Shown in pieces: positions 1,489 through 19,416 of a stretch of 19,416 nucleotides of DNA. A program made the position numbers and the translations under genes. The stretch is taken from assembly GCA_002698885.1 (NCBI GenBank), contig PAAH01000018.1:9408-28823 (forward strand). The letters run 5' to 3'. The stretch comes from Nitrososphaerota archaeon (GTDB lineage: Archaea; Thermoproteota; Nitrososphaeria; Nitrososphaerales; Nitrosopumilaceae). The stretch's first letter is position 1; each line of letters begins with the position of its first letter. The notes under the pieces were generated by a model. That model saw only the letters and a list, made by a program, of their open reading frames with translations. It was not told the DNA's origin and ran no database searches.

Positions 1489-1875
1489 ATGGATGATGGT
1501 TATAATATAAAAAATTTAGAAAAAATGATAATTGAAAAATCATGTAAAATCGGACTGCTAGAAAATGAAATTAGGGAACAAACACTTGAAATAGAAAAAT
1601 TGAAAAAAATCTTACATGAATTAGTTTATGAAAAACTTGAAATAAAACCTACAGATGAAAAAGTAACTAAATTAAATGAGATTTACACAAGATTGCTTCG
1701 GAGAGAAATTGATGTAGGAGGCTTGTTAAATTTTTATCCTAAAATTAAAAATAATGAGATGAGTTTTGATGAATTAGAAGAGCACATTAGAAATTCTAAT
1801 GAATTTATAGTAACAGAGAAATCTCCAACGTCAAAAACTGAATTTAATTATTACTCCCCTGATATGAAAAATTAA
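1489..1875 (+). CDS. Small coiled-coil protein with C-terminal DUF4214-like module
   Basis: This 128-residue protein has two parts. Residues about 8-52 form a charged heptad pattern (IIEKSCKIGLLENEI, LEIEKLKKILHEL) expected to make a coiled coil. Residues 59-108 match the DUF4214 pattern: LNEIYTRLLRREIDVGGLLN followed by MSFDELEEHIRNSNEF, meaning a helix with LYxxxLxR, a D-x-x-G-L turn and an S-x-E-F end. The last 20 residues look disordered. No catalytic motif is present, so a scaffold or adaptor role is inference. The same module occurs at the C-termini of the kinase at 4860-6230 and the radical SAM enzyme at 8285-9343. The TAA at 1873-1875 lies in the same frame as the next gene, with no intervening base, so the two genes form one interrupted frame. 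Confidence 0.75.
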   Translation: MDDGYNIKNLEKMIIEKSCKIGLLENEIREQTLEIEKLKKILHELVYEKLEIKPTDEKVTKLNEIYTRLLRREIDVGGLLNFYPKIKNNEMSFDELEEHIRNSNEFIVTEKSPTSKTEFNYYSPDMKN

Positions 1876-2982
1876 TTGATCAATTTGACAGAAAAAACTG
1901 AAATTACAACGGTTATCAAAAAGTCTGCAACTGATGATCCTGTGAGAAATGCAGTAGATCCAAAACTTTACGATGAATACAGGCAAATTTGGAAAGATGT
2001 TAATAGTCTAGAAAAAGTAACAGATTTTCCAACACAGATAGACTTTGAACTGAACTATTCTTGTAATTTTACCTGTCCTATGTGTACTTGGAATAAAGAA
2101 TCAACTGAAAATATGGGTACAGAAGCTTGGTTTGATTTTGATGTCTTTAAAGAAGTAATAGACGATGCTATACCTAAAGGTCTCAAATCAATTAGAATGA
2201 ATTACATAAATGAACCTCTAATGAGAAAAGACATAGTCAATTTTATTTCGTATGCACGTAAGGCCGGAGTTTTAGATATTTACTTTAGCACTAATGGTTC
2301 ACTCTTAACTGATGATATAATTAGAGATTTAATTAATTCTGGTCTTTTAAGATTACAAATTTCTTTAGATGCATTTACAGAAGAGACATTTAACAAAATA
2401 AGAACGGGTGGAAATTTTAAGAGTGTAATTAAAAATGTTTTAAGATTTTTAGAAATTAGAAAGGAAATGGATGTTAAGCTACCAACACTTAGAGTAAACT
2501 TCGTTAAAACTGATACAAATAAACATGAATTAGATGATTTTGTTAAATTTTGGAAATCTAAAGCAGACTCTATTGGAGTACAGGATTTGGTTGGAATAAT
2601 GAGTGGTTACGGCAGAAAAACAGAGGAAGAAATTAAGGATACCAATCTTACTGGAACGTTTAGGTGTGCTCAACCATTTCAACATTTAACTCTAAGATAC
2701 GATGGAACCATTTTACCATGTTGTACATTTTTTGGAGCAGAAATTCCCATAGCGAAACTTAAAACAAAGAAAAAAATTAAATTTTCCGAAATAGAAAATA
2801 TTGGTCTTTTAGACAAATCATTAAAATCTAAATTAATTATACGAAATATAGAAGAAACTTGGAAAAGTAAGGAAATGGAATATTTTAGGGAAATTCACAG
2901 AAAAGGGGAATTTTGGAAACATCCAGTTTGCAAAAAATGCGTACTTTCAACATCTCACTTTGATGTACAAGATAACTTATAA
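1876..2982 (+). CDS. Radical SAM enzyme with SPASM domain
   Basis: The protein has 368 residues. C63-x3-C67-x2-C70 (in SCNFTCPMC) is the radical SAM cluster motif that binds a 4Fe-4S centre and S-adenosylmethionine. The barrel continues with MNYINEPLM (109-116), a GGE-like position, and STNGSLLTDD (138-147). The C-terminal part has C264, a C282-C283 pair after YDGTILP, and C352-x2-C355, the layout of a SPASM domain carrying extra clusters. Relatives in surface-polysaccharide loci are thought to modify sugars or glycan-linked groups; the substrate here is unknown. The start is unusual. The first codon after the preceding stop is TTG at 1876, with another TTG at 1885 and GTG at 1942 as alternatives, and none has a clear Shine-Dalgarno. 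About 55 residues precede the barrel. Enzyme class is confident, exact start is not. Confidence 0.85.
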   Translation: MINLTEKTEITTVIKKSATDDPVRNAVDPKLYDEYRQIWKDVNSLEKVTDFPTQIDFELNYSCNFTCPMCTWNKESTENMGTEAWFDFDVFKEVIDDAIPKGLKSIRMNYINEPLMRKDIVNFISYARKAGVLDIYFSTNGSLLTDDIIRDLINSGLLRLQISLDAFTEETFNKIRTGGNFKSVIKNVLRFLEIRKEMDVKLPTLRVNFVKTDTNKHELDDFVKFWKSKADSIGVQDLVGIMSGYGRKTEEEIKDTNLTGTFRCAQPFQHLTLRYDGTILPCCTFFGAEIPIAKLKTKKKIKFSEIENIGLLDKSLKSKLIIRNIEETWKSKEMEYFREIHRKGEFWKHPVCKKCVLSTSHFDVQDNL

Positions 2983-3004
2983 TCAATATTTTATGACTTA
3001 GATT

Positions 3005-3358
3005 ATGGAATTTACAGATATTTGTAAGCAATATTTTCAAGCCTTTCAAGAAAAAGATATCGAAATAATTGAACAGATGGTGCATGAATCTGTTGAATTA
3101 AAAGATTGGGAGTTAATGGTTTCTGGCAAGTCTGATTTTATCAATGCAAACAAGAAAATATTTGCTGGTGTTGAAAATATTTCAATTATAGTTAAAAACC
3201 AAGGTATTCAAAATCAATCAACATCTCAATCCGTAATTGTTTTTAACGAAATTGAAATTCACTTGAATAATAATTCAATAATATTAGAAGTAATGGATGT
3301 AATTGAATTTGAGGCAAAAACTGGCTTAATAAAATCTCTTAGGGCATATAAAATTTAG
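3005..3358 (+). CDS. NTF2-like (SnoaL-type) small protein
   Basis: This is a 117-residue protein. The N-terminal helix pattern FTDICKQYFQAFQEKDIEII is followed by a turn with HESVELKDWEL, then alternating strands ending in VMDVIEFEAKTGLIKSLRAYKI. That layout (long helix with F-x-A-F-x-x-K-D, then a curved sheet ending in a strand pair) is typical of the NTF2/SnoaL cone fold. The fold is used by small-molecule enzymes and by binding proteins, so no reaction can be assigned. It follows the radical SAM gene by 22 nt on the same strand and probably shares its transcript, which suggests it acts on the same intermediate. The ATG at 3005 has no evident ribosome site. Confidence 0.65.
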   Translation: MEFTDICKQYFQAFQEKDIEIIEQMVHESVELKDWELMVSGKSDFINANKKIFAGVENISIIVKNQGIQNQSTSQSVIVFNEIEIHLNNNSIILEVMDVIEFEAKTGLIKSLRAYKI

Positions 3359-3374
3359 TTTTTAAATTACTTAG

Positions 3375-3380
3375 TTTTTT
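3375..3380 (+). terminator. Oligo-T tract after the NTF2-like gene
   Basis: A run of six T residues lies 17 nt beyond the stop of the NTF2-like gene, before the next start at 3418. Archaeal RNA polymerase stops at such tracts without needing a hairpin. This would separate the radical SAM unit from the sugar-dehydrogenase-like gene. AT richness lowers specificity. Confidence 0.4.
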
Positions 3381-3417
3381 ACAAATAGTATAATACAAGG
3401 AATTTTTTAAAATTGAT

Positions 3418-4821
3418 ATGTTACAATTGATAATTATCGCTGGTATCAGTTCACTTATACTGATTGGTGGGATTACAGATTACTATGTTTCTGCCCAGAC
3501 AGATGATTATGCAGAAACTGATGCTGATCTTGGGCAAGATGGTTTTCTTAAAGGTGAATTAACTGTCTTTGATGATGATTATACAGTTGAATTATTTGCT
3601 AATGGACTAGATTTCCCAACAACTATTGATTTTATCGGAAATGATTTACTGGTACTTGAAAAAAATACGGGAAAAGTTATTAGAATTAATGAAAATGGCG
3701 AGATTGATAAAGAACCAGTTTTAGTTGTGCCTGTATACAATGGTAATGAGAGTGGTTTGCTTGGAATTGCTACTCAAGACAATGATGTTTTTCTATATTT
3801 TACAGAATCATTTGAAGGAAGTAGCCCAGAAAAACCTAATAAAAATACAGTCTATCACTATTCTTGGGATGGAGATAATTTAACTAATCCAATCTTGATT
3901 AAAGAATTGTCTGCTGACTTTTGGTCACATAATGGAGGAGTATTTGCCAAAGGTCAAAGTGAGGAGATTTATTTTGTAATAGGAGATGATAATAAGAGGA
4001 CAATTTTTCAAAATGATCCTTCTGTTCCATCAAGTAACGAAACTGGAAGTATTTTCAAAATACATACTGACGATGACAACAGAGTTGAATTATTTGCGGT
4101 AGGAATACGAAACAGTTTTGGTTTGGCCGTTGATCCGCTTACAGGTAATTTGTGGCAGACAGAAAACGGAATGCAAGTATATGATGAAATTAATCTTGTA
4201 GAAAATAGATTCAACAGTGGATGGAGTGCGATTACTGGTCCTTCTGACAGAGTTGATGCAATTACTGATCCAGTATTGTTTGAGAAAGGAATACAATCTC
4301 TTGAAGGTTTTGTTTATAGCGACCCAGAATTTTCATGGTATAATGCAGTTGGATCTACTGCAATTGCTTTTCCTGATATGACTAATTTTGCAAAATACCA
4401 AGATTGGTTATTTGTTGGAGATTTCTCTAATGGAAGAATCTACAAATTTCAACTAAATTCAGATAGAACAGATTTCATTTTTTCTGACACAAATTTAAAA
4501 GATCTTGTATATGATCCTGATGATAATTTGAATGAAATTCTTTTTGCTGAAACTTTTCCAGGTGGAGTAACTGATATTAAATTTGGTAATGATGCAATGT
4601 ATGTAGTTTCTCCATTTTATCATGGAAGTATTTACAAGATTTATCCAAAGCAATTAATTCCAGAGTCAAGTCAAATCAATATTCCAGATACTCCTATTTT
4701 AGAAATTGAAGAAACTCCTGAAGAGTTCCCATATACTGGAATTATTCTGGCAATAATAGGCACAATAGTAGTTGGAATAATACTAGTAATTAGGAAAAAA
4801 AGAAGGTATCTTAAAAATTAG
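3418..4821 (+). CDS. Secreted, membrane-anchored PQQ-type sugar dehydrogenase-like beta-propeller
   Basis: The protein has 467 residues. Residues 1-26 form a signal peptide or anchor with a VSA-Q cleavage-like site. The body follows the glucose/sorbosone dehydrogenase propeller family: LEKNTGKVIRI (80-90), SGLLGIA (112-118), a WSHNGG motif with H171 at the expected catalytic histidine, GIRNSFGLAVDPLTGNLW (229-246), YDEINLV (255-261), and GDFSNGRIYKF (334-344). Family members oxidise sugars with PQQ, but many archaeal relatives have unknown cofactor use, so the activity is not proven. The C-terminus (residues 431-467) has PEEFPYTG, a 17-residue hydrophobic segment and an RKKRR tail, a three-part sorting or anchoring signal. 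An oligo-T tract precedes the gene, so it may have its own promoter (AT-rich box about 3386-3397). It likely acts on the outside of the cell. Confidence 0.8.
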   Translation: MLQLIIIAGISSLILIGGITDYYVSAQTDDYAETDADLGQDGFLKGELTVFDDDYTVELFANGLDFPTTIDFIGNDLLVLEKNTGKVIRINENGEIDKEPVLVVPVYNGNESGLLGIATQDNDVFLYFTESFEGSSPEKPNKNTVYHYSWDGDNLTNPILIKELSADFWSHNGGVFAKGQSEEIYFVIGDDNKRTIFQNDPSVPSSNETGSIFKIHTDDDNRVELFAVGIRNSFGLAVDPLTGNLWQTENGMQVYDEINLVENRFNSGWSAITGPSDRVDAITDPVLFEKGIQSLEGFVYSDPEFSWYNAVGSTAIAFPDMTNFAKYQDWLFVGDFSNGRIYKFQLNSDRTDFIFSDTNLKDLVYDPDDNLNEILFAETFPGGVTDIKFGNDAMYVVSPFYHGSIYKIYPKQLIPESSQINIPDTPILEIEETPEEFPYTGIILAIIGTIVVGIILVIRKKRRYLKN

Positions 4822-4841
4822 TTCTAAACACCAAAAGTAAA

Positions 4842-4847
4842 TTTTTT
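4842..4847 (+). terminator. Oligo-T tract between convergent genes
   Basis: Six consecutive T residues lie about 20 nt beyond the stop of the dehydrogenase-like gene, in the 38-base gap before the convergent kinase gene. This is suitable as an archaeal oligo-T terminator for the plus-strand gene. Confidence 0.45.
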
Positions 4848-4859
4848 AATTAATACACA

Positions 4860-6230
4860 CTATGCCAATGTTTTATATTCATCTGAATCTAAAAGTGTTT
4901 TTCTTAATTCATCAATTGTAATTTTTTTATTTTCTAGAAGTGAAGAGAAATGCGTTAGTCCATCTCTGTCTGCATTTCTGTTAAGTATTTCTAAGTAAAG
5001 TTCGTTTACAACTATTTTCGAAGGAGTATCAAATATTTTATCACTGTCAATAAAACTGGAAAGAGCATTATTCTTTCTTTGTAGTGATTTTGTCTCATTA
5101 ACAAGCTCTCTAATGTTATTTTCTTGTTCTAATATTTTTTTCTGGATATTTTGTATCTTATTATCAGATTCAGTATATTCACGAATTTTAGTATACGCAT
5201 TATGATAAAATTCCTTTTCAGAAGACATTATGTCATTCTGTAAGGATATTTCAGTATTAATCACATCTTTCTCATTCAAACGTGATGATATCTCAGAAAT
5301 GAATTCACTAAATCCATTTTTTTGTTGATTATAAAATGATAAGATGGTGGAATCAAAACTTTGTATGTATTCTTTAATTTCAAATATCAGTCTACATGCA
5401 ACATCAAACTGTTCATTTGACCTATACTTTGTAAACTCTCTTAATGACGATGTGAACGAGTGATTATTTTTTTCTGTGTTTAGCATTACACTGTAAATAT
5501 AATCATTTGATACTGAATATTGAATTTTGAAGAATCTGAGCCAGTCAAAAAAATAAAGATGTGTTTCATTCCCATCTTCAAAATCAACCAATGTGATATT
5601 TTCGTCGTCAACAAGGATATTTCTAGATATGAAATCCCCATTGGAGTATCTTTTAGATATTTTCTTATTTTTGAAATTCTGTAAGAATATTGATATACAT
5701 TTCTTTATTGTAAGAATTTCATCTTCCGTAGGAGAATATAGATTGATGAATCTATCAACTAACTGGTTCACTTCTCGTTCAAGGGAATCAAAAGTAGATG
5801 GTTCAAGCATGGCGTTCAAGTGTTCGTACAGCGAGATTACTCTCTGCATTATAGATTTCACTAGGTTTTGAGAAGGATTATCAGATAGATATCTGTCAAG
5901 ATTTTTTCCATTAATTCCTTCTTCAATCATAATTTCAACATCATTCAACATCAAAATTCCGATTGGTTTTGGTATTCCTTTACCACCACATTTTTTATAA
6001 ATTATTTCTTGATTTTCGAATTGATTATGTATTAATCCATTTGGTTCTTTATAGAATTTCGCTGTTATAGTTGGTATACCATCTTGTAGTATTAAAAAAA
6101 CAATCCTACCCTGCTCATATCGCTTGTAACTTCCAGTGCTAATCATTACATAAGATAATTTTTTGTTTGTGTCAAAATATTGATTATATTTTGAATCATG
6201 TACAAGTGAATTAATTATAGATTTAATCAT
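4860..6230 (-). CDS. Phosphotransferase-type kinase with coiled coil and DUF4214-like tail
   Basis: The protein has 456 residues, numbered from the ATG at 6230. The N-terminal two thirds follow the aminoglycoside/choline kinase fold. ITAKFYKEP carries the candidate ATP lysine K58, and E75 is the pairing glutamate. SNGDFISRNIL (196-206) is the catalytic loop with D199 and N204, and LVDFEDG (214-220) holds the metal-binding D216. Most relatives have HGD; here it is NGD. Residues about 357-392 (IQKKILEQENNIREL and on) look like a coiled coil. Residues 405-455 match DUF4214 (NELYLEILNRNADRDGL, ITIDELRKTLLDSDEY). It should phosphorylate a small molecule or glycan end; the substrate is unknown. An alternative GTG at 6239 overlaps the upstream stop as GTGA. 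I prefer ATG 6230 because GTGAT, four bases before it, matches the archaeal anti-Shine-Dalgarno. It is the last gene of the minus-strand series. Confidence 0.8.
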   Translation of the reverse strand: MIKSIINSLVHDSKYNQYFDTNKKLSYVMISTGSYKRYEQGRIVFLILQDGIPTITAKFYKEPNGLIHNQFENQEIIYKKCGGKGIPKPIGILMLNDVEIMIEEGINGKNLDRYLSDNPSQNLVKSIMQRVISLYEHLNAMLEPSTFDSLEREVNQLVDRFINLYSPTEDEILTIKKCISIFLQNFKNKKISKRYSNGDFISRNILVDDENITLVDFEDGNETHLYFFDWLRFFKIQYSVSNDYIYSVMLNTEKNNHSFTSSLREFTKYRSNEQFDVACRLIFEIKEYIQSFDSTILSFYNQQKNGFSEFISEISSRLNEKDVINTEISLQNDIMSSEKEFYHNAYTKIREYTESDNKIQNIQKKILEQENNIRELVNETKSLQRKNNALSSFIDSDKIFDTPSKIVVNELYLEILNRNADRDGLTHFSSLLENKKITIDELRKTLLDSDEYKTLA

Positions 6231-6235
6231 CAAGA

Positions 6236-8194
6236 TCACTTTTGTGCCACCATAGAATAAGATGAATAAAGATTTGGTAGATGCTCAGAAAAAATCTTGT
6301 AGAGATGTTTTAATTTTTCATTATATTTACTACTTGTTTGATTTGATGTATCAAACTCATCTAAAAAATAAAGATTGTTGGCAACAAACATAGAAGACTT
6401 GTTAGTTGATAAATCTACCCATGCAAATGGTAATCGGTGATCACGAAGGTTTCCATAAAAATTAACATCTTTAAAACCTGATTTTAAAATCATTTCTTCG
6501 AATTCTTTTTTTCCATGATGTAAAGTTTTTAATTTTTCACCAGTTTCTGTTTCAAAAATCGATTTGGAGATGTCACTTTCAAGATAAACATAATCCTGCA
6601 GACCATCTACATTCTCACCTAGAAGATATTGCAAACCGAATTTGTTAAGTGCATCAAAATAAAGTGTGCCATCAAATTTTAGTATACGATAAGATTCATT
6701 CAGTAATTCCTGTTGGTTTTTCATTTGATCTCTGTTTTCAGAAGAATTTATTTTCTCGAAACCATTTATAATTACCAGATCAAATTTATCAGTATCAAAT
6801 TTTGTATTATAAATTTCAGAGTTCAGAAACTCTATGTTATTTCGGTTTTCTTGCTTAGCAATGATTTTCATGATACTAATCTTATCTGGATCATTTTCTA
6901 TGGCAATGACATTACAGAATCTTGATAGCGGTACTGCAATCTGACCCAAGTCAGCGCCTATGACAAGGGCCAAATCATCCTTTTTTATATCAAGTAGGAA
7001 CAGAAAATCAGCCCTATTCTGACTTGTTAGCATTGCATATGACCATGGTTTATTTTGATACACTTCTGCGGCAACCTCTAACCAATTTTTTGTTTCTAAT
7101 TTTTCCAAAAACATGCGATATTCACGCTTTTCTATTGCGAAATCAACAACTTCCGAATTATAAAATGTTGAATAACCTCTTGGCATGTACTCATATTCCA
7201 TTTCTCTCATGTATGCATCCAAGATTTCTATGATCACATTATCTGTAGAAAAATTTTCTCGGGTTAGATTATTTATTTTTAATTTAGTAGAAAAATTAAC
7301 AAGTTTCTCAATATGGTCTTCTGGTACCATTGGTTTTTGCACTAGGGAACGATATAGAAGACTGTAAAAATAATCCTTGTCAGTTGGTATGTAGAATTCA
7401 TGCTGGTACAGGATCTTACGATCTAGTATGTCATTAACCCACTTTGGATCATAATATTGTTCTCCAACATGAAACAAGACATCTTTGTTTTCAATCTTAA
7501 CTAAATGAAACTCCTGCTTTTTTTCTTCTAAGATTTTTTTTCCATTTGTGATGAACCTGATTTCTTCTACTTGATTTGTTAAAATATCAATATCACTATT
7601 TAGTGCTGATATATCCAATTCAGGTATATTTTCAAAGTTTCTCAGTATAACATAATTTACAGTTGCGTTTAAAACATAAAATAACTGAGAAGTGTTTTTC
7701 CATCCTTTAGATCCTACTAGATCAGAATTAATAGTTTCAATTTTACTATTCCATTTTTCTGATAAACTATTACGAACATCCTTTAGGTTTTTTCCAAGTA
7801 AAAGTACAAGATCATGTTCTGCTTCTTCTGTAGTATTACTGGCATGTATATGATTGCCTCCACCAGTCCATGAACGGTAAGTTTGCTTTGCATCAAATAT
7901 GTTAATATTCACATATGTTTCACCTTTTGCAGTTTCTCTATTATCATATGTAGGATTCTTATCTTCAATTATACACAATAAGAAAGGTCCAAAATCATGT
8001 TGATCTGCTTTGAAGGCACCAGGAGGTAAGTTTACACCATAAAAACGTGACATATTATCAGAAAAAAATTCTGAACTCCAATTAACTTCATAAACTTGTA
8101 GTAATTCAAATTTTTTCTTAAGATCACTTAGTATTTCTTCTGTCTTATGACGAGCCTTTTTCCAAATAATAAATACATGTAATTCTGAATCCAA
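6236..8194 (-). CDS. Two-part protein: unassigned N-terminal region plus class I SAM methyltransferase domain
   Basis: The protein has 652 residues. The N-terminal region opens with HVFIIWKKAR, has a striking WTGGGNHIHASN motif (109-120), and later LNSDIDILTN (198-207), reminiscent of the D-x-D of nucleotidyltransferase folds. I do not recognise a named family for it. Residues about 390-560 are a class I methyltransferase: LALVIGADLGQIAVPLSR (408-425) is motif I, with GADLGQ in place of the usual GxGxG, IAIENDP (430-436) supplies the ribose-binding E433, and KFDLVIINGFE (470-480) and YRILKFDGTLYF (502-513) follow. The start is TTG at 8194. An in-frame stop lies six codons upstream and the next ATG would remove the conserved opening. 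The stop abuts the kinase start, so translation is probably coupled and the two likely work on one substrate. Confidence 0.75.
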   Translation of the reverse strand: MDSELHVFIIWKKARHKTEEILSDLKKKFELLQVYEVNWSSEFFSDNMSRFYGVNLPPGAFKADQHDFGPFLLCIIEDKNPTYDNRETAKGETYVNINIFDAKQTYRSWTGGGNHIHASNTTEEAEHDLVLLLGKNLKDVRNSLSEKWNSKIETINSDLVGSKGWKNTSQLFYVLNATVNYVILRNFENIPELDISALNSDIDILTNQVEEIRFITNGKKILEEKKQEFHLVKIENKDVLFHVGEQYYDPKWVNDILDRKILYQHEFYIPTDKDYFYSLLYRSLVQKPMVPEDHIEKLVNFSTKLKINNLTRENFSTDNVIIEILDAYMREMEYEYMPRGYSTFYNSEVVDFAIEKREYRMFLEKLETKNWLEVAAEVYQNKPWSYAMLTSQNRADFLFLLDIKKDDLALVIGADLGQIAVPLSRFCNVIAIENDPDKISIMKIIAKQENRNNIEFLNSEIYNTKFDTDKFDLVIINGFEKINSSENRDQMKNQQELLNESYRILKFDGTLYFDALNKFGLQYLLGENVDGLQDYVYLESDISKSIFETETGEKLKTLHHGKKEFEEMILKSGFKDVNFYGNLRDHRLPFAWVDLSTNKSSMFVANNLYFLDEFDTSNQTSSKYNEKLKHLYKIFSEHLPNLYSSYSMVAQK

Positions 8195-8284
8195 TGTGTA
8201 TTCCTGAACCTAAAATCAATCACATACTTATTTTTGTATCCATCAACATCTATTCAATTATTAGCATCAAATTAAGAATTCAAT

Positions 8285-9343
8285 TTAGGTTAGTTTAGAA
8301 GTTCTTCTAGATCCATATTCAAATGATTGTTTTATATGATTTTCAATATCAGTGATAGAAAGCTCACCGGTAGATAGTTTCGAGTAAAAATAATAGAATC
8401 CTTCTTTGTCTGGAAATCTATTCAGAAGTTTTTGGTATAAATTAATTACAGAATGAGCTGTTTCATTATTATATTTATTTACAATATTTTTCCGATCTTC
8501 TATTTCTTGTTCAGGTATTGCTTGATTACAATATCGGCAAATTATCTCATCATCATAAGATTTCATTTTATTATAGATTTTCTTAAACTCATCATTTGTG
8601 AAAAGTGAATTATAATCCATCCTAGTTAAATTTCCTATAATATTCTTTAAACCATAATCCATACAACAAAGTGTAACATCACCATTTGGTAAGAGTGTAT
8701 TAGCATCGAATCTATCCTCTAACCCATCATGACTTGAAATGTTACATGACAAAGGGCCCAATTTTTTTTCAAAATCATTTTTTACATTTGAAAGATTTCC
8801 TGCACGACTAATCATTTTTTCGGCTTCAATATCTATATGGAGAATATCTTTAACTTTAGGATGCAAATCACCCATTGACATACATGTAAGATTTTTTATG
8901 TTACTCTCTTGGAGTTTTTTGAGAATAGCCAAATAGTTTTTGTTAACTGCAATTTTTGCATAACTAGATGAATCAGGTAAATGGATATGAAAATTTGCAA
9001 ATGGTATATGCTTAATTTTATCTATATCCTCTAACTTTAATCCAACTAATGTTGAGTATATGCTTATTTTGTGACCAGAATCAAAAGCATAAAGAATCAT
9101 CTTTGCAGCTTCTGGATGTAAAAATATTTCAGAATATCCTCCAAAACTTATTTGTACATTTTCTGGAATTTTATCTATACATTGTTTAAATACAGAAAAA
9201 TCCATAATGTTTGGATTTCCATAACTTATGTTTGTTAAGTTATTTTGTAATTCATATTCTTTGATCAATAGTTCCTGTGGGCAAAAATCACAATCTACTC
9301 TACAAGCAATAGTTGCAGTTATTGCCATGTAAGCTTCAGCCAT
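8285..9343 (-). CDS. Radical SAM/SPASM enzyme with C-terminal DUF4214-like module
   Basis: The protein has 352 residues. ACRVDCDFC gives C14, C18 and C21, the radical SAM CxxxCxxC cluster motif. SFGGYSEIFLHP (66-77) is the GGE-like motif. Later cysteines (C200, C226-C227 after LLPNGDVTL, and C269-x2-C272) match the SPASM-type layout of the enzyme at 1876-2982, though overall similarity is modest. The barrel begins almost at the N-terminus, so ATG at 9343 (or 9328) is sound. Residues 296-344 carry a DUF4214 module: VINLYQKLLNRFPDKEGF, then LSITDIENHIKQSFEY. Fusion of the module to a radical SAM enzyme is the main oddity. The gene lies 78 nt after the methyltransferase at 9422 and 90 nt before the two-part methyltransferase, gaps large enough for its own promoter. 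Confidence 0.85.
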   Translation of the reverse strand: MAEAYMAITATIACRVDCDFCPQELLIKEYELQNNLTNISYGNPNIMDFSVFKQCIDKIPENVQISFGGYSEIFLHPEAAKMILYAFDSGHKISIYSTLVGLKLEDIDKIKHIPFANFHIHLPDSSSYAKIAVNKNYLAILKKLQESNIKNLTCMSMGDLHPKVKDILHIDIEAEKMISRAGNLSNVKNDFEKKLGPLSCNISSHDGLEDRFDANTLLPNGDVTLCCMDYGLKNIIGNLTRMDYNSLFTNDEFKKIYNKMKSYDDEIICRYCNQAIPEQEIEDRKNIVNKYNNETAHSVINLYQKLLNRFPDKEGFYYFYSKLSTGELSITDIENHIKQSFEYGSRRTSKLT

Positions 9344-12295: not shown

Positions 12296-12304
12296 TTTTT
12301 AAAC
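12296..12304 (+). promoter_or_regulatory. Probable TATA box for the family 2 glycosyltransferase gene
   Basis: The AT box tttttaaac lies 23 to 31 nt upstream of the ATG at 12327, with no Shine-Dalgarno before the start, consistent with a leaderless archaeal promoter. Confidence 0.4.
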
Positions 12305-12326
12305 AAAGTTTAGGCTAGTTAATAAT

Positions 12327-13205
12327 ATGTCAATATTGACCTGTATTCCTGCATATAATGAGGGAAAAATAATCCGTGAAGTTGTAAAAAAATGTTTTAA
12401 AGTATCTGATCAGGTTGTGGTTTGTGACGATGGTTCAACGGACAATACATACGAAGAAGCTGATGCTGCTGGTGCACATGTAATTAGACATGATAGAAAT
12501 ATCGGAAAGGGAGAAGCATTAAGATCACTTTTTAAATTTGCTGCACACTCCAAAAATGATATTATTGTAACCATTGATGGTGATGGACAATTCTTACCAG
12601 AAGAAATCCCAAAACTTGTGACTGACATAGAGCAAAAAAATGCTGATATTGTAATTGGCTATCGTTTCGATGATGCAACAGACATGCCAAATTATAGGCG
12701 ATTTGGGAATAAAATTTTAGATAGAATGGCAAATATGGCTACTGAAATATCTGTTAGGGATACTCAGAGTGGATATAGAGCATATTCAAGAGATATTATA
12801 GAAAAATTAGATTTCAAGATTAATGGTTTTGGTGCCGACGTAGAAATATTAATTGATGCTGCAAAAAAAGGCATGCGTATCTCTGAGCAGAAAGTTACTG
12901 TGATATACAACACAGGAACTCAAACATCTACAAAAAATCCTATCTCACATACAGGAGAAGTCATGACAACTATTTTAGAAAAAATTGCTATAAAGTCACC
13001 GTTAAAATATATTGGAATTCCAGGGATTATTACAATATTAATTGGAATATATTTTGCATCTAACGTTGTTATAATGTATAATGATACAGGATACTTCTCA
13101 ATTCCATTTACTCTAGTAGGTGCCACACTTGTAGTGACAGGATTACTGTTATTTTTCATGGCAACGCTTTTGTTTAGTGTTTCTAAGAGAACCAAGAAGA
13201 ATTAA
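12327..13205 (+). CDS. Family 2 glycosyltransferase, polyprenyl-phosphate sugar synthase-like, with two-helix membrane tail
   Basis: The protein has 292 residues. CIPAYNEG (6-13), VVCDDGSTDNT (31-41), the DGDGQF metal/nucleotide motif at 84-89, VIGYR (109-113) and DTQSGYRAYSR (145-155) are the ordered motifs of dolichyl-phosphate mannose/glucose synthase-type GT2 enzymes. Two hydrophobic segments (about 229-250 and 258-285) follow with a basic end, anchoring the enzyme with its active site in the cytoplasm. The likely role is to move a sugar from a nucleotide donor to polyprenyl phosphate for use outside the membrane. It precedes a GT-C membrane transferase by 19 nt, a natural consumer of the lipid-linked sugar. 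The sugar identity is not visible. The ATG at 12327 lies just before the first beta strand. Confidence 0.87.
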   Translation: MSILTCIPAYNEGKIIREVVKKCFKVSDQVVVCDDGSTDNTYEEADAAGAHVIRHDRNIGKGEALRSLFKFAAHSKNDIIVTIDGDGQFLPEEIPKLVTDIEQKNADIVIGYRFDDATDMPNYRRFGNKILDRMANMATEISVRDTQSGYRAYSRDIIEKLDFKINGFGADVEILIDAAKKGMRISEQKVTVIYNTGTQTSTKNPISHTGEVMTTILEKIAIKSPLKYIGIPGIITILIGIYFASNVVIMYNDTGYFSIPFTLVGATLVVTGLLLFFMATLLFSVSKRTKKN

Positions 13206-13224
13206 GTATTAAAAAATTAAAAAC

Positions 13225-15201
13225 ATGTCGTCAAAAAGTTCATTCAGTATTTCTACTGAATCAAAAAAAATTCCAATTATTATAACACTAACATATTTCA
13301 TAGTTTTTTCATATGTAAGCTTCTTCCATCATAATTATTGGTTTGAGGCAGATGGAATATTCTTTCTAAATTGGGGTAATCAGATACTTAATGGAGACGG
13401 TGAAAATGTGGTAGTTCCAAATGCCAGTGTTGGAGGTCCAATCTTGTATGCATATCTAACCACAATTTTTGGTGATGCATTCCTAGTAATAAAATCAATT
13501 TCAATTCTTGGATGCACTGGAATTGTGTTTTTATCATATTTCATTACAAAGAATATTTTTAATTCTAAAATAGCATTAACAGTTCAACTTTTTTTTGTTT
13601 TTACATCTCAGTTAGGCCTTTTATCGATTTTAGCATTTAATGAAGTATTAGTATTATTTTTAATCTTTTTTTCATTTTATTTTATTACCAAAAAACAATT
13701 AAAAATTACTGATATAGTAATTGTAGGAATATCTCTAGGACTTGCGTCAAGTATTAGATTTCAAGGGTTCATTGTGTTTGTTTCATTTCTGATATTCTTC
13801 CTAATACAAAATAAAAAAATTAGTCTAAACCTAAAACATGCGCTAATACTTGCAAGTGTTTTTCTTCTAGTGTTATCACCTGTATTATATTATAATTATT
13901 CCACACATGAAGTAATTTCAGAATCAAGTCTAGCATTTCATTTCTCTAATACAGCAAAATATGGAACAACTGAATGGAAAAATAATCTAATGGAAATGCA
14001 TCAAGCACAAACTGGTTCCATTTTTGATGTAATATTACTTGATTTCGGAATGTTCATGGAAAATTATTTTTACAGTTTGTTATATCAAACACCAAATCAT
14101 CTTTTTAATTTTGACAAGGTTGCAAATATCTCTATTATTCCGCTAATTCCATTTATTGGAATAATTCCTGTAATATTGGGTTTCTTACACATCTTACAAA
14201 TCAAAGTAAATAAAAAAAATGTAAGTATAATATTTGGTAGTGCTATATTTTCATTTTTACTTGTGCTGTCATATGGTAAACTTGATGTTCATTCTTTTGC
14301 AATAATTATAATTCCAGTTTTGATAATGTTTTTAATTCATTTCAAAAACATTCAAAAAAATTTCCTTCCGCTGATAATCCTTAGTATAATTTTTCCTTTA
14401 ATAATTTCTATAGTTACGCTAAGTAGATCATATCAACTATTTCCTATATGGATTACTGTTGCAATACTAAGTGCAGTATTTTTTGTTGAATTTATTCCTA
14501 AAATCTTTCTTAAATTCAAACAGAATACTGGAAAGTATAATCTAAATCAAAGTACAAAAAAGATTATCATTATACCAATTTTCCTAATTTTATTAGTTAA
14601 CATAGGATTCACATACAAACTAATTGATTTCTGGCTTTATGATCAAGAAATGATTCAAGTAAATCTTGAAACCGTTTACAATGAATTTTTTAAAACATTC
14701 AGTAACAATGAAAAACTACAGAGAGGATACGAAAGCAAAATTATTGGAGAACTGTTAGCGAAGCAACCAGAAATTGAGAATAGTTACATAATGTCAGTAG
14801 ATCCAACAGTTTCATACTATGCTGGTGCAAAATATCTCTCAACAGGCTTTTTAGAAGGTAAGAAAAACGACACTCTTTCAAAATTTGTTAGTCGTGAAAA
14901 TTGGTCAGAAAAAGAAAAATATTCTTCAAATGTAGTTAGTAACCCAACTGATAGGTATGATAAGATAAATCCAAAAGCTGATTATATCGTATATGTTCCA
15001 AACATAAAATCTCATGACTCGTCTAAATATACAGACACACAAGCACCACAACTTGATCCATCTGTATTTTCTTCTACACAAGCTTACGATTTGTTAATAT
15101 TATTAGATCCAGAAAATTCTAAAATTCCTGATAATTTCGAATTACTTTACAAATCAGAATTATCAGAAACAGTTGTTTATAAAATAAATAATTTGAAATA
15201 A
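13225..15201 (+). CDS. GT-C membrane glycosyltransferase (PMT/ArnT-like, family 39)
   Basis: The protein has 658 residues with roughly a dozen hydrophobic helices between residues 16 and 465. It ends in a soluble domain (about 470-658), expected outside the cell. After the first helix comes WFEADGIFFLNWGNQILNG (39-57). Acidic E41/D43 in the first external loop followed by an aromatic-rich helix is the catalytic signature of GT-C enzymes that use polyprenyl-phosphate sugars. SIRFQGF near 175-181 matches the family's R-x-x-G-F/L cytoplasmic turn. The C-terminal domain contains YIMSVDPTVSYYAGAKYL (about 517-534), a common block in archaeal relatives. It should transfer a lipid-linked sugar to a protein or glycan. 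It follows the GT2 synthase by 19 nt in the same unit and is separated by 11 bases from the convergent FkbM gene. Confidence 0.78.
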   Translation: MSSKSSFSISTESKKIPIIITLTYFIVFSYVSFFHHNYWFEADGIFFLNWGNQILNGDGENVVVPNASVGGPILYAYLTTIFGDAFLVIKSISILGCTGIVFLSYFITKNIFNSKIALTVQLFFVFTSQLGLLSILAFNEVLVLFLIFFSFYFITKKQLKITDIVIVGISLGLASSIRFQGFIVFVSFLIFFLIQNKKISLNLKHALILASVFLLVLSPVLYYNYSTHEVISESSLAFHFSNTAKYGTTEWKNNLMEMHQAQTGSIFDVILLDFGMFMENYFYSLLYQTPNHLFNFDKVANISIIPLIPFIGIIPVILGFLHILQIKVNKKNVSIIFGSAIFSFLLVLSYGKLDVHSFAIIIIPVLIMFLIHFKNIQKNFLPLIILSIIFPLIISIVTLSRSYQLFPIWITVAILSAVFFVEFIPKIFLKFKQNTGKYNLNQSTKKIIIIPIFLILLVNIGFTYKLIDFWLYDQEMIQVNLETVYNEFFKTFSNNEKLQRGYESKIIGELLAKQPEIENSYIMSVDPTVSYYAGAKYLSTGFLEGKKNDTLSKFVSRENWSEKEKYSSNVVSNPTDRYDKINPKADYIVYVPNIKSHDSSKYTDTQAPQLDPSVFSSTQAYDLLILLDPENSKIPDNFELLYKSELSETVVYKINNLK

Positions 15202-15212
15202 AAAATTATATT

Positions 15213-16106
15213 TTAATTAAATTTTTTATTTTTTTTACAGAATAGATTCACAAACGAATTTTTTGTTTCTGGATATTTTTCAAAGAGATCAGTTAAACTA
15301 ATAATTTTGAATTTTCCAAGTTTCCGATTAAATGACATAAGATCAAATCCCATTTTAATTAAAAAATCTGGCAAAGATTTTGGACTGAACCCTGATTCCC
15401 TTATTGAACTTGGGTTATATTCTATTTGTATAGTAGCATCATTTGACTCTAGAATTTTTTCAATTCCTGCTAATACCTTCATCTCAGAACCTTCAGTATC
15501 AATTTTAATAAAATTAATTTTATCCTTGAAATTTATTTCAGAGAAAAAGTCATCCATTGTTGTAGATTCTATATCTAATGATTTATCACATAAGTCTGAA
15601 TTATAGATTCTATGCATACCATTACTAAATTTGCAAAGAAATAGCTTTGTTGTCTCTGTTTTATCGGATATTGCTTTTTGTGATAAAATTACATTATCAT
15701 AATTATTTTCTTCTATGTTCTTTTTTAGGATGGAAAAATTTGTTGGATCTGGCTCAAAGGCAAAAACTTTTCCATTAGGACCAACAAGTTTTGCAAATAA
15801 TAATGTAAAGTAACCAATGTTTGCTCCTATATCAATAACATTATTTCCTTCCTTCACTTCTTGTTTGATCATCATAGTTTCTTCATATTCGTGATGAGGA
15901 TTAATTGAAAGACCAAGTGAATCTTTAGAATCAAGATATATTTTATGATCATCTGTTAAAACATATTCTGGTACAAAATGAGACCAAAAAAAATAAACGG
16001 TTTTATGTATAGGATAATATCTTATCAATCCTAATCCATTAACGGAAAAAATGTGATATCTAATCGCATATGCAATTTTTTTTATCACTCCATCTATTTC
16101 GGGCAT
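15213..16106 (-). CDS. FkbM-family methyltransferase
   Basis: The protein has 297 residues. NVIDIGANIGYFTLLFAK (89-106) is motif I of the FkbM family, VFAFEPDP (114-121) supplies E118, and NFIKIDTEGSEMKVL (198-212) is the family hallmark block. FkbM enzymes methylate hydroxyl groups of small molecules and sugars, and are frequent in surface-glycan loci. O-methylation of a glycan sugar is therefore likely but not shown. The first 60 residues have an aromatic and partly hydrophobic stretch (about 28-50) which may touch the membrane. The gene stands alone between two plus-strand genes and has its own divergent promoter region shared with the DPM-like gene. The lysine-rich tail arises from the overlapping oligo-T terminator of the neighbour. 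Family assignment is firm. Confidence 0.92.
   Translation of the reverse strand: MPEIDGVIKKIAYAIRYHIFSVNGLGLIRYYPIHKTVYFFWSHFVPEYVLTDDHKIYLDSKDSLGLSINPHHEYEETMMIKQEVKEGNNVIDIGANIGYFTLLFAKLVGPNGKVFAFEPDPTNFSILKKNIEENNYDNVILSQKAISDKTETTKLFLCKFSNGMHRIYNSDLCDKSLDIESTTMDDFFSEINFKDKINFIKIDTEGSEMKVLAGIEKILESNDATIQIEYNPSSIRESGFSPKSLPDFLIKMGFDLMSFNRKLGKFKIISLTDLFEKYPETKNSFVNLFCKKNKKFN
15222..15236 (+). terminator. Double oligo-T terminator inside the convergent gene end
   Basis: T6 and T8 runs, separated by one A, lie 21 to 35 nt beyond the GT-C stop. They form a strong archaeal-type terminator on the plus strand. They also encode the lysine-rich tail (KKNKKFN) of the FkbM protein on the other strand. 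Confidence 0.55.
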
Positions 16107-16113
16107 ATACCAG

Positions 16114-16128
16114 TAAACTTCAAGTTTA
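16114..16128. repeat. Perfect 7+7 palindrome upstream of the FkbM gene
   Basis: TAAACTT, one C, then AAGTTTA make a perfect inverted repeat 8 to 22 nt upstream of the FkbM ATG. It overlaps the place where a TATA box would lie (minus strand TATAAAC at 16124-16130). It may be an operator, or chance in AT-rich DNA. Confidence 0.35.
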
Positions 16129-16224
16129 TAGTTATTAATTCATTCTAAAAACTTTAACTTGATTTTAATTATTTTGTTCAAAAAGTTTCTGTATAGTTAA
16201 TAAGAATTAGATTTTGGTTAATTT

Positions 16225-16232
16225 GAGTGATT
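16225..16232 (+). promoter_or_regulatory. Shine-Dalgarno-like site that decides the start of the DPM-like gene
   Basis: GAGTGATT lies six bases before the ATG at 16239. It resembles the GAGGTGAT complement of the 16S 3' end. The in-frame GTG at 16227 lies inside it and is therefore more likely part of the ribosome site than the start. Confidence 0.4.
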
Positions 16233-16238
16233 AAATTG

Positions 16239-17378
16239 ATGGAAAATCAAATTTCAATAATTGTGCCCACATATAATGAAGCAGAAAATATCTGTGATAT
16301 TATAAAATCAATAAAGAGTAATCTTTCAGAAGTTAATGCTGAAATTATAGTTGTAGATGATGACTCGCCAGATGGTACTGGAACAATAGTTGATGAATAT
16401 ATTCAATCTACTATACAAAATGATAGACATTCAGTTTCAATTATTCATAGAAAAAATAGAAATGGTTTAAGTGCAGCAATTCTTAACGGTGTAGAAAATT
16501 CAAAGGGAGAAGTAGTAGTTGTTATGGATAGTGATTTTTCACATCCGCCTGACGTTATTCCAAAGATGCTTGATAAAATAGAAAAAACACAATGTGATGT
16601 AGTGATAGCATCACGATACGTCCAAGGTGGAGGTATAGAAGGATGGCCAGTTAAACGCAAATTAATTAGTAAAGCAGCTACTGAAATTGCAAAAAAAGGA
16701 TTGGGTGTAAAAGCAAACGATCCAATGTCAGGATTTTTTGCATTCAAAAAGAATCTAATCAAAAATATTTCTTTTGATGCAATAGGTTACAAAATGTTAT
16801 TAGAATTATTAGTAAAAACTGCTGATGTAAATATTCAAGAAATTCCTTATACATTTACTGACAGAAAATTTGGTACGAGCAAGCTTGGTTCTTCAACAAT
16901 TCTAGACTATTGTAAATCCGTTTGGAAATTATATAGATATGGTAAAGAAGCAGCAAAAAAAGAGAGACGTTTATCGGTGAAATTTTTATCAAAGGCAGCA
17001 AGATTCTTTACTGTTGGCGCATCAGGACTAGGAGTAAATTATCTTGCTTCAATTTTGTTTTCAACTTCTCTTGATTTGTGGTATATTCATTCAACAATAA
17101 TTGGAATTCTATTTGCAATTACAAGTAACTTTTTCTTGCATAAATATTGGACATTCGGTGACAGAGATTTTTCATTAAAACGAACAGTATTACAATATAC
17201 AAAATTTGCAGGTTTTAGTTCAATTAGTGGATTGGTTCAGATTGGAATGGTATATTATTTTGTTAATGAATTTAATTTGTTATATCCAGTTTCTCTAGTT
17301 TTAGCCGTTGGTACAGCAGCATTTAGTAACTTTATAGTAAATAAGAAATGGACATTTAATGAGAAGGTTTGGGGCTGA
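16239..17378 (+). CDS. Dolichyl-phosphate mannose synthase-like GT2 fused to GtrA membrane domain
   Basis: The protein has 379 residues from ATG 16239 (383 if GTG 16227 is used). The catalytic part shows VPTYNEAEN (9-17), VVDDDSPDGT (38-47), VMDSDFSHPP (95-104), SRYVQGGG (125-132), NDPMSGFFAF (160-169) and FTDRKFGTSKLG (206-217). This is the motif series of polyprenol monophosphomannose synthase. From about residue 250, four hydrophobic helices with RFFTVGASGLGVNY at the start and NKKWTF at the end form a GtrA domain, which in related proteins helps move or anchor the lipid-linked sugar. This GT2-GtrA fusion is common in archaea. It should make dolichyl/polyprenyl-phosphate mannose or a similar donor at the inner membrane face for GT-C transferases. 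It is divergent from the FkbM gene and convergent with the right-hand membrane gene. Confidence 0.9.
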   Translation: MENQISIIVPTYNEAENICDIIKSIKSNLSEVNAEIIVVDDDSPDGTGTIVDEYIQSTIQNDRHSVSIIHRKNRNGLSAAILNGVENSKGEVVVVMDSDFSHPPDVIPKMLDKIEKTQCDVVIASRYVQGGGIEGWPVKRKLISKAATEIAKKGLGVKANDPMSGFFAFKKNLIKNISFDAIGYKMLLELLVKTADVNIQEIPYTFTDRKFGTSKLGSSTILDYCKSVWKLYRYGKEAAKKERRLSVKFLSKAARFFTVGASGLGVNYLASILFSTSLDLWYIHSTIIGILFAITSNFFLHKYWTFGDRDFSLKRTVLQYTKFAGFSSISGLVQIGMVYYFVNEFNLLYPVSLVLAVGTAAFSNFIVNKKWTFNEKVWG

Positions 17379-17425
17379 TTATTCAATTGGTTTTAAATTA
17401 ACTGTGACAACAAGTAATTTAATAA

Positions 17426-19096
17426 TCAATTTTCTAAAGAACCCTGCGAGATTTTTTTAGGTCTAAAAACACGATAGAAAAGATAAGACAAAATGGAAAC
17501 AGAAAATGTGAAAATAATTGAATAAGGAATTGGACCAAGAATATGTAGAATGTAAATATCATGTTGTAGTTGTTCAAACGCTGTAATTATAGAATGAGTT
17601 AACTGACTATATTGAAATGTCCAAATAACATCTGAAACAAGATACATCTGAGCTGTTTTGAATCCTTCCAGTCCAAAGAGACCAACCTCTGTACCAGGTC
17701 TGCTCCACACAAACCAAGCCACATCTTGAATCACATATACAGTATTAAAAAATGCACCAATTACAGCTAGAATTAGAATAATTGGTAAAATTTTCCATCT
17801 GTTTCTTTGTTCTAAACTTGCACCTAAAGGTATGAGTAAAAATGGAATCATCAAAAATAGATATCTAGGACCCCAACCGACCAAGCCATGCCAGCCACCA
17901 GTACTTGCTGTATGATAAATAATGTTCAATACAAAAAATGACAGAATTAGAACACACTCAGCCCTATTTTTCCTAAAATAGTCAATAAATGAAAAAAATA
18001 TTGTCAAAAGTATAGGACAGAATATAAAAAGTCCTACACCTGGTGCAAAAAATATTCCAAATATTCTGGTCATAAGTTCTGTGAATGGAACGCTAAATGC
18101 TGTCATAAAAAATGTAAGATCAGTATACGCAGAAGGGTTCTCTAAGGTACATGCATCACCAGTAGCAGCAGGATTTTTAATCAAATCACACTCAGATATA
18201 TCATCTATTGCAGCATCATCTGGTAATGATACTATGTCAAGTCTGTATCTTAAACCAGGAATAGTTTTGTAAATATAATAAACAAATAGACTAGGTATAC
18301 TAAAGAAAGAAACTGAAAGTAGTTTCTTCTTAAATGAAGAGTGAGAAACTATCAAGAATATCCATATTGGGAGTATGAACAGAATAACGTCTGATCTAAT
18401 TAAGAAGCCAAATCCAAATGCAGCTGAGGAAAAAATTAAAAATCTATACTGATGTAGGTTTTGAAATTTTTTGAAAAACAAATATCCTAAAAGAACAAAA
18501 AATAAACCTGGAACTAGATTCAATGATGTATTAGAATAAGCCCAAACTGTTGTTGAAAAGGCTAGAATTAGTGTAAGAATTATGGAATTTGTTCTAGAGA
18601 ATTTTTGTTCTATACAAATGAGGAAAAAAATTGCTACTGACAATGAAGAAAAAAATGGACCATAAAATAATTCCATAAATACAACATCAACATTCTGGGA
18701 ATTTCTCCAATGAATATAGTGTGGATCACGAAAATCTTCTACATCTAGAACTAAAGTTTCAGATGAAATGAAATTCATGTAGTGATTTGCTGCCATGAAT
18801 GGAACCTGAGTTGCACTATGAAAAACTGATGCGGGATAACAGGTAATTGGGTTTGCACATAATGAACCAACATTTCGAGGATTATAGATTGGAACGTTAA
18901 AGAACACTTTTGATTCATCTTGAACGTATGCAGGATCTGGTTCTAGTGTTGTCATACGATAAGCCATTTCTGAACTATGTAATTCATCAATAGCATATCT
19001 ATGACCATCAGACGTAAATAGAAACACGATAAATGCTAATCCCAAAATCAGGAAGAAAATTTTACGGATATTGTGTTTTTTATATTCTAATGTCAT
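17426..19096 (-). CDS. Polytopic membrane protein, probable GT-C type glycosyltransferase
   Basis: The protein has 556 residues. The first helix (about 13-28) is followed by TSDGHRYAIDELHSSEMAYR (28-47), an acidic loop with D37 and E38 placed as in GT-C catalytic loops. A long external segment with paired cysteines (SLCANPITCYP) follows, then about ten more hydrophobic helices. A second external loop (about 270-330) again has two cysteines (ECDLI and DACTLEN). The last helix ends in a basic tail. This architecture suggests transfer of a lipid-linked sugar outside the membrane, but no family-specific motif confirms it, and a transporter-like role cannot be excluded. The ATG at 19096 overlaps the stop of the upstream DUF4214-repeat gene as ATGA and has a strong AAGGAG site, so the two proteins are translationally coupled. 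Confidence 0.6.
   Translation of the reverse strand: MTLEYKKHNIRKIFFLILGLAFIVFLFTSDGHRYAIDELHSSEMAYRMTTLEPDPAYVQDESKVFFNVPIYNPRNVGSLCANPITCYPASVFHSATQVPFMAANHYMNFISSETLVLDVEDFRDPHYIHWRNSQNVDVVFMELFYGPFFSSLSVAIFFLICIEQKFSRTNSIILTLILAFSTTVWAYSNTSLNLVPGLFFVLLGYLFFKKFQNLHQYRFLIFSSAAFGFGFLIRSDVILFILPIWIFLIVSHSSFKKKLLSVSFFSIPSLFVYYIYKTIPGLRYRLDIVSLPDDAAIDDISECDLIKNPAATGDACTLENPSAYTDLTFFMTAFSVPFTELMTRIFGIFFAPGVGLFIFCPILLTIFFSFIDYFRKNRAECVLILSFFVLNIIYHTASTGGWHGLVGWGPRYLFLMIPFLLIPLGASLEQRNRWKILPIILILAVIGAFFNTVYVIQDVAWFVWSRPGTEVGLFGLEGFKTAQMYLVSDVIWTFQYSQLTHSIITAFEQLQHDIYILHILGPIPYSIIFTFSVSILSYLFYRVFRPKKISQGSLEN
17452..17458 (+). terminator. Oligo-T run in the convergent region
   Basis: Seven T residues lie about 75 nt after the stop of the DPM-like gene, inside the 3' coding end of the opposing membrane gene. 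It is a possible plus-strand terminator; the 47-base gap itself has only a T4 run. Confidence 0.25.
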
Positions 19097-19416
19097 TCGT
19101 TCTCCTTACTTTCTATATACTCATCAAATGCCTTTTGGTAACAATTGGTTTTATTATCAGGACAGTTTCGCTCTGCTTCTAGTTCAATTTCCGTGTATTC
19201 GTAAACTTGATGCTCAATTTCGTCTATTGTAATTAATCCGTCATTCATTAATTCAAAATAATGATCCTTTTCATACCATATTGCAGATCTATTCATTATT
19301 TCTAAAAATACCGAATTGATATCATTTTTGATCTTATATTCTTCAGATTTCTTAAGTTCTGCTTCAATTCCATCTATTGTGATTGCTTCATTATCAAGCA
19401 TTTCATGATAATACTG
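19093..19416 (-). CDS. Tandem DUF4214-like repeat protein, partial (5' end beyond the window)
   Basis: The frame is open through the right edge. Five codons (QYYHE) precede the first visible ATG at 19401 and continue the repeat pattern, so the true start lies outside. Two DUF4214-like units are visible: the end of one (YYHEMLDNEAITIDGIEAEL, ending SEEY) and a full second (INSVFLEIMNRSAIWYEKDH, then ITIDEIEHQVYEY). The second unit lacks the usual D-x-x-G turn. A charged tail with two cysteines (NCPDNKTNC) and KENE ends the protein. The function is unknown; the module suggests an adaptor or docking protein. It overlaps the following membrane protein by four bases (ATGA), so the two are made together. 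Confidence 0.7.
   Translation of the reverse strand, partial: QYYHEMLDNEAITIDGIEAELKKSEEYKIKNDINSVFLEIMNRSAIWYEKDHYFELMNDGLITIDEIEHQVYEYTEIELEAERNCPDNKTNCYQKAFDEYIESKENE
19102..19107 (-). promoter_or_regulatory. Shine-Dalgarno site for the right-edge membrane protein
   Basis: The minus strand reads AAGGAG five bases before the ATG at 19096, inside the 3' end of the upstream gene. It is the clearest ribosome site in the window. It fits an internal operon gene, while most first genes here look leaderless. Confidence 0.6.

Follow-up and report, generated by a model that had tools for sequence, protein, structure and literature searches.

A short module, DUF4214, recurs on proteins of quite different kinds in a 19,416-nucleotide stretch of DNA (hereafter the window) that lies on contig C16 (92,174 bp) of a Nitrosopumilaceae-like archaeon and appears to be a portion of its surface-glycan locus. 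DUF4214 is widespread and, to our knowledge, without an established function. We find seven DUF4214-like modules over four proteins—one each in a coiled-coil protein, a kinase-like protein and the second of two radical S-adenosylmethionine (SAM) proteins, and four in a protein at the right edge, of which two lie entirely and one partly outside the window. Judged from sequence, our analysis supports one family, DUF4214, reused on unrelated enzymes. More tentatively, and with somewhat less than even confidence, we propose that the whole is best explained if the module is a swappable recruitment tail in a glycan locus with a split chain terminator. An earlier note on the window had described five such modules over the same four proteins of one glycan locus; this spread is confirmed with seven modules, and the coordinates it gave were correct within a few residues. 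The right-edge protein, to which it assigned two modules, actually has four, together with a hydrophobic helix at its N-terminus and a domain of the Polyketide_cyc (SRPBCC) family.

One module family on unrelated proteins

Against the Pfam DUF4214 family (PF13946), whose cut-off is 23.2 bits for the whole protein, the kinase tail scored 25.1 bits and the radical SAM tail 23.3 bits, barely above it. The window part of the right-edge protein scored 13.3 bits alone, and the complete protein 64.8 bits (7.6e-18), with Polyketide_cyc matched at 3.1e-8. The coiled-coil protein stayed under the cut-off, being unlisted in the window Pfam search and reaching 12.2 bits in the whole-genome search; the earlier assignment of these tails to DUF4214 therefore holds by Pfam profile for three of the four proteins, and we call the coiled-coil module "DUF4214-like" because it is linked through an archaeal module profile only (33.7 bits). 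All seven genome-wide Pfam DUF4214 matches (E<=10) in this 746 kb, 63.7% complete genome fall within C16:11082-29234.

The archaeal module profile was built from 18 modules, all from other genomes of the same family (L020 and L021 excluded), and was searched against 239 open reading frames (ORFs) of >=60 aa in overlapping stretches spanning the whole contig, some ORFs being present twice. It scored the kinase at 59.3, the radical SAM protein at 46.4 and the coiled-coil protein at 33.7 bits (E 3e-10 for the last, and 3e-10 to 3e-18 across these three single-module proteins), and the four right-edge modules at 34.2, 42.3, 25.4 and 12.8 bits. The best non-module ORF of the contig reached 4.7 bits (E 0.34), a clean gap which argues that the resemblance is not due to chance. 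A later module profile, used for copy counts and homolog scans, also includes the window's own modules and bacterial ones.

Across an alignment of 20 modules, Y, L, R, S and E are invariant, and the window modules share the Y..L.R and S.E signature of DUF4214. Archaeal and bacterial module profiles align with 98.9% probability (P-value 1.8e-17). AlphaFold2 models of two right-edge homologs, P0108 and P0101 (mean predicted local distance difference test, pLDDT, 85 and 86; predicted template modelling score, pTM, 0.53 and 0.63), both have three helices per full module.

The coiled-coil protein resembles the kinase tail beyond the module: a single comparison including the coiled coil gave 30% identity over 102 aa (E 4e-8), so the earlier statement that the partners share nothing else does not hold for this pair. 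In its best 35-residue stretch, L/I/V/M occupy 80% of a/d positions vs. 16% of others. A protein search returned 124 matches including itself, with exactly one module in all 120 of those listed (later profile), and 115 of 119 sequences examined in this stand-alone family measure 118 to 135 residues. A conserved family of this kind makes the protein a fair candidate for an adaptor; the earlier note had named it a candidate scaffold.

An exchangeable end on a methyltransferase-kinase pair

Within the kinase-like family, N200, D202, F203, R206, N207 and D219-F220-E221 are invariant over 18 aligned sequences; we read these residues, by their likeness to kinase motifs, as a putative kinase site. 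The protein has no Pfam kinase match. At its junction with the neighbouring methyltransferase gene there is either a 4-nt overlap, with a GTG start, or a 5-nt gap, with an ATG start at 6230, the latter being the more likely start judging by those of homologs. The same methyltransferase-kinase synteny is observed in three loci, namely the window and two contigs (C6 and C10) of another genome of the family, G067, with kinase identities to the window of 43 and 36% and methyltransferase identity of 50% over residues 349-652 and 357-652.

In each of these loci, a methyltransferase stands beside a kinase-like part that is followed by a coiled coil, and what comes after the coiled coil is exchanged. 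The window kinase ends in DUF4214; the L156/L161 kinase carries instead a tail that is amphipathic by eye, and the L162 kinase two stretches of glycosyltransferase family 2 (GT2), neither having a DUF4214 module. Beside the L162 kinase lie an ATP-binding cassette (ABC) 2 membrane protein and an ABC ATPase, together with genes that read as sugar-nucleotide genes; no ABC exporter was seen among the genes read in L161. That two relatives bear other kinase tails indicates that the module occupies an exchangeable end slot.

Among 200 family genomes, a module-tailed kinase was found in no other genome, the sole kinase homologs there being the two module-free ones in G067, and the second radical SAM protein was found in its own genome only (E<=1e-20). 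Module-tailed kinase homologs are known from a protein search rather than from family genomes: 26 of its 27 matches carry the module, 25 of them singly, with P0146 having none and P0147, which is not a kinase, having two. In P0147 (698 aa), a glycosyltransferase-like part (by eye) is joined to a methyltransferase via two adjacent DUF4214 modules, possibly a natural fusion of two tagged enzymes.

Two further observations concern the proteins of this pair and their tails. The N-terminal half of the methyltransferase protein (residues 4-347) has a separate homolog in G068 at 40% identity, from which window 6236-8194 looks like a gene fusion. Left of the window on C16, L008:3538-4806 encodes a methyltransferase-like protein (Methyltransf_23 at E 6.7e-5, under cut-off) with a repetitive coiled coil, and its C-terminal 'FRxxxKxDKxxG'-type tail matches in type that of the kinase homolog L161:8485-9849; this may be another reusable tail of these loci.

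The arrangement recalls WbdD, which, as described in PMC11231755 and PMC3482155, comprises a methyltransferase, a kinase and a coiled-coil ruler, as well as a C-terminal region where an amphipathic helix and the site that recruits the polymerase are located; it also recalls K. pneumoniae O7 ORF6, for which the same two papers describe a methyltransferase, an unannotated kinase domain, a coiled coil and GT2 modules. The likeness is one of architecture—methyltransferase, kinase-like part, coiled coil and separate C-terminal region—and L162 extends it with a neighbouring ABC exporter and fused GT2 domains. Unlike these systems, the window has two genes instead of one, with DUF4214 at the end. In searches of the PDB, the kinase profile had no match with E below 0.2 and the methyltransferase had none at E<=0.1; no solved WbdD structure was hit. 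By architecture, then, the kinase and its abutting methyltransferase resemble a split methyltransferase-kinase-coiled-coil chain terminator.

Copy number and predicted membrane side

All 14 scorable enzyme-like carriers of relatives have a single module, as do the window kinase, radical SAM and coiled-coil proteins (L035:8045-8353 and L036:6756-6995, cut by contig ends, and L020, with an internal stop, were left out of this count). The right-edge protein has four modules, its ortholog three and a PMT-like protein two, and two or three are present in all 120 listed of 207 right-edge homologs. Of 67 bacterial ORFs—collected with a single DNA pattern and so biased, some of them cut by locus ends—54 have two to four modules and 13 have one, in contrast with the single-module enzyme-like carriers here. 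Since lone modules in bacteria also occur on a beta-helix protein, this copy-number difference is a tendency rather than a law.

In the membrane-anchored right-edge family, the N-side is the more positive in 97 of 101 scored members (of 120 listed), an N-in/C-out pattern by charge that should place the repeats outside. Outward repeats would make the tandem protein a poor scaffold for cytoplasmic enzymes, which goes against the earlier proposal of it as a scaffold. Some members of this family (P0001-P0120), with hydrophobic helix, SRPBCC domain and DUF4214 repeats, are labelled 'ribosome-associated toxin RatA', a name that presumably derives from the SRPBCC domain and that the predicted outward topology makes doubtful.

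Carriers and neighbourhoods in relatives and bacteria

DUF4214 is rare among relatives: a match (E<=0.01) occurs in 13 of 200 family genomes, own included and one with an internal stop, and in a phylum-wide draw 4 of 398 genomes matched (E<=0.001), its own among them, every one of which belongs to this family. Carriers tested with Pfam comprise methyltransferases, a sulfotransferase and an ABC ATPase (L041, L028, L040); those recognised by eye comprise more methyltransferases, GT2-like, FkbM-like and PMT-like proteins and the right-edge ortholog.

We compared 101 neighbours of module genes, pooled from eleven loci, with 101 control genes and counted Epimerase 11 vs. at most 1, GT2 9 vs. at most 1, GT1 8 vs. 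2 and ABC2_membrane 6 vs. at most 1. Controls came from four genomes (G044, G025, G059, G119) and cases from eight, three being in common, and the comparison is pooled, not per locus. The neighbours of L037, L041 and L042 (30 of 131) had been dropped as orthologous-looking to L034, 31 of 132 control genes had been removed to equalise the two sets at 101, and the L029 neighbourhood stood outside the test. Module-gene neighbourhoods in relatives, when pooled, are rich in glycan genes. The survey proposed in the earlier note, for DUF4214 tails together with kinases and radical SAM enzymes in related genomes, yielded little in the family genomes described above.

In bacteria, recognised partners among the 67 ORFs include SpoIID (10), RTX (7), Amidase_2 (7) and FkbM methyltransferases (3). 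By Pfam, FkbM enzymes of Massilia are among the carriers, and peptidase, Ig-like and beta-helix partners occur as well. G541, the Campylobacterota genome behind L069, is 1.8 Mb in size and has as many as 103 matches to DUF4214 (E<=0.001).

Kinship with phycobilisome linkers

Phycobilisome (PBS) linkers are the best matches of the module in both sequence and fold, and either half of the linker domain can be aligned to a single module. The PBS linker family PF00427 is also matched by the DUF4214 proteins P0002, P0048 and P0101 and by 2 of the 67 bacterial ORFs. Its cut-off of 28.7 bits was reached by none of the window proteins: the kinase tail scored 14.0, and the other module proteins were unlisted at E<=10, a search in which HMMER filters drop most matches above 0.1. 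With the half-domain relation detectable by both routes, sequence and fold point to DUF4214 as a three-helix unit kin to one half of the PBS-linker (REP) domain. PBS linkers are scaffold proteins, according to PMC7994580; unlike in that system, there are no phycobiliproteins here and the enzymes carry single halves, not pairs. This connection was not found in the literature searched, and domain databases may well record it.

A more distant likeness is to the N-terminal domain of Caulobacter RsaA (PDB 6t72, PF19198), in which residues 3-59 superpose on one module (a weak fold match) and two weak motif copies lie 58 residues apart. This calcium-dependent domain is not significant by profile comparison and forms a separate Pfam family, PF19198, which was unlisted (E<=10) for every window module protein. 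We rejected RsaA as a DUF4214 member, since the sequence tests gave either no match or a marginal one. None of 190 genomes from the class to which G547 belongs had a match to RsaA_NTD, in a search where Caulobacter among the control genomes did score. In a fold search with a complete right-edge homolog, SRPBCC-type matches took up the list and gave no information on the modules; a module-only model was used instead. We regard as unlikely the broadest version of this kinship, in which DUF4214, the PBS linker repeat and the lipopolysaccharide-binding end of RsaA would form one superfamily of two-half helical domains, with single halves on cytoplasmic enzymes pairing directly or via the coiled-coil protein to build an assembly of several enzymes for terminating and decorating the surface glycan.

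A proposed recruitment tail and its alternatives

Under the reading we favour, the DUF4214 tail would bring tailoring and chain-terminating enzymes to one membrane assembly site. The kinase-like protein, presumed active as a kinase, and the abutting methyltransferase would work as a split methyltransferase-kinase chain terminator, with the coiled coil as spacer and the module as far-end anchor, where relatives have another tail or polymerising glycosyltransferases. The stand-alone coiled coil plus module may be an adaptor that joins the kinase or serves the neighbouring, module-less first radical SAM protein. The likeliest partner in such a complex would be another module—linker domains being made of two halves—or else a protein of the polymerase/exporter complex; both the linker kinship and the architecture of P0147 hint at pairing of half domains. 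Because the module sits at an exchangeable end, where related systems place membrane attachment or polymerase contact, recruitment appears to be its best supported function, and docking is favoured over glycan binding, both being candidate functions.

Several observations weigh against this reading. Three of them lowered our confidence: PDB sequence matches of the module are significant per chain only, the overlap of the kinase and methyltransferase genes hinges on the start chosen, and the L161 pair sits amid housekeeping-like genes, unlike a glycan locus. In addition, the L041 methyltransferase, with an N-terminal module (unseen by Pfam at E<=1e-5; 44.8 bits with the module profile), lies by TatC and purine genes outside glycan loci, in a gene arrangement that L034, L037 and L042 appear to share; the proposed tie of modules to glycan loci thus stands for pooled neighbours and fails for this conserved methyltransferase. 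Where a partner is recognised, the carriers in bacteria are mostly secreted or wall-active proteins. Finally, a private docking code was rejected: modules within a genome were no more alike than those between genomes (23 vs. 245 pairs, permutation p = 0.29), which speaks against a locus-specific code. For the reusable docking tag of the earlier note, the evidence favours one family on unrelated enzymes and an exchangeable kinase end, and speaks against a private code and against exclusivity to glycan loci.

A possible, if rather doubtful, alternative is that DUF4214 binds glycans, one copy inside holding the growing glycan and two or more (>=2) outside holding the finished glycan or the cell surface. 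Use of the module on both membrane sides, the likeness to RsaA, the ABC ATPase carrier and a published suggestion that DUF4214 probably serves as a surface anchor all fit this picture. Against its RsaA component, RsaA matches only its own family PF19198 and not DUF4214, hhalign of RsaA against module profiles gave probabilities <2%, its best-domain score was equalled by 26, 15 and 11 shuffles, and Foldseek places it at rank 15 (E 2.6), with an unrelated protein one step higher at 14. The RsaA calcium loop (77-100), whose stability is tied to bound sugar, lies outside the matched residues 3-59, and the better-matching PBS linkers bind proteins. We think it unlikely that the module is a generic helical add-on for stability or dimerisation, its co-occurrence arising from gene shuffling in glycan islands with no common partner. 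Modules do track protein family more than genome (mean BLOSUM 1.72 for 22 same-family pairs across genomes, with families assigned by eye, vs. 1.07 within genomes, 23 pairs, and 0.98 between genomes, 245 pairs, for different families), and the wide bacterial use, from RTX and peptidase to Ig-like and beta-helix proteins, and the archaeal case outside glycan loci agree with such a role; against it stand the copy-number difference, the glycan linkage, the conserved stand-alone coiled coil plus module, and residues that stay invariant in 20 modules from different proteins, although the reason for their conservation may be structural. We give almost no credence to the idea that short, helical and charged segments look alike here by chance: the modules are indeed short, helical and of low identity, with the coiled-coil protein under the Pfam cut-off, but the E-values from the independent profile and the clean gap contradict this, as does the presence of the module in 26 of 27 matches to the kinase and in every one of the 120 matches listed for the coiled-coil protein and the 120 for the right-edge protein (the profile used for these counts including the window's modules).

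Gene content of the locus

By Pfam, the locus contains nucleotide-sugar enzymes, methyltransferases, two radical SAM/SPASM proteins, a PMT-type protein and a WavE-like protein, to which reading by eye adds further glycosyltransferase-like proteins. Coordinates of the proteins discussed are collected in Table 1.

Table 1 Module-bearing proteins and their neighbours in the window (positions in nucleotides of the window)
Protein	Position	Strand	Features
Coiled-coil protein	1489..1875	+	Coiled coil residues ~6-50; DUF4214-like module residues ~60-108, nt 1663-1812
First radical SAM/SPASM protein, module-free	1876..2982	+	Radical_SAM 4.3e-16; SPASM 2.8e-6
Kinase-like protein	4860..6239	-	Putative catalytic part; coiled coil residues ~354-403; C-terminal DUF4214 residues 411-458, nt 4866-5009
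Methyltransferase protein	6236..8194	-	C-terminal methyltransferase domain, Methyltransf_31 6.2e-9
Second radical SAM/SPASM protein	8285..9343	-	C-terminal DUF4214 residues ~298-343, nt 8315-8452
Right-edge protein, C-terminal part	19093..19416	-	Module 4 nt ~19183-19332; part of module 3 from 19333 to the edge

Lying in frame with the coiled-coil gene, the first radical SAM gene has its earliest candidate start, a TTG at 1876, directly after the TAA. The second matches SPASM at 2.9e-7 and Radical_SAM at 5.8e-6 (27 bits, short of the cut-off of 29.5). The right-edge gene extends past the window to ~20397 (L009:504-1805), where the hydrophobic helix, the Polyketide_cyc/SRPBCC domain and modules 1 and 2 are encoded; scattered ambiguous bases in the L008/L009 assembly yield X residues, one each within right-edge modules 2 and 3. 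At the left end of the contig (G000:C16:10-264) lies the incomplete start of an ABC2-type exporter membrane protein (23.3 bits, under cut-off), and the contig also has a flippase-like gene. Window 3418-4821 encodes a glucose/sorbosone dehydrogenase-like protein with a hydrophobic segment at its C-terminus; a gene of this kind is likewise close to the module gene in L041.

Significance

In published work, one paper regards DUF4214 as a likely surface anchor and another discusses surface-layer (S-layer)-anchored enzymes; a term search of a paper on archaeal N-glycans (PMC12153357) gave no mention of DUF, radical SAM, methyltransferase, gene cluster, sulfat or kinase. Placing DUF4214 at the exchangeable end of a methyltransferase-kinase-coiled-coil system would give this family a concrete and testable role, and its kinship with PBS linkers provides a structural template for its possible mode of binding. 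If true, the proposed recruitment would reveal how surface-glycan assembly is organised in ammonia-oxidising archaea.

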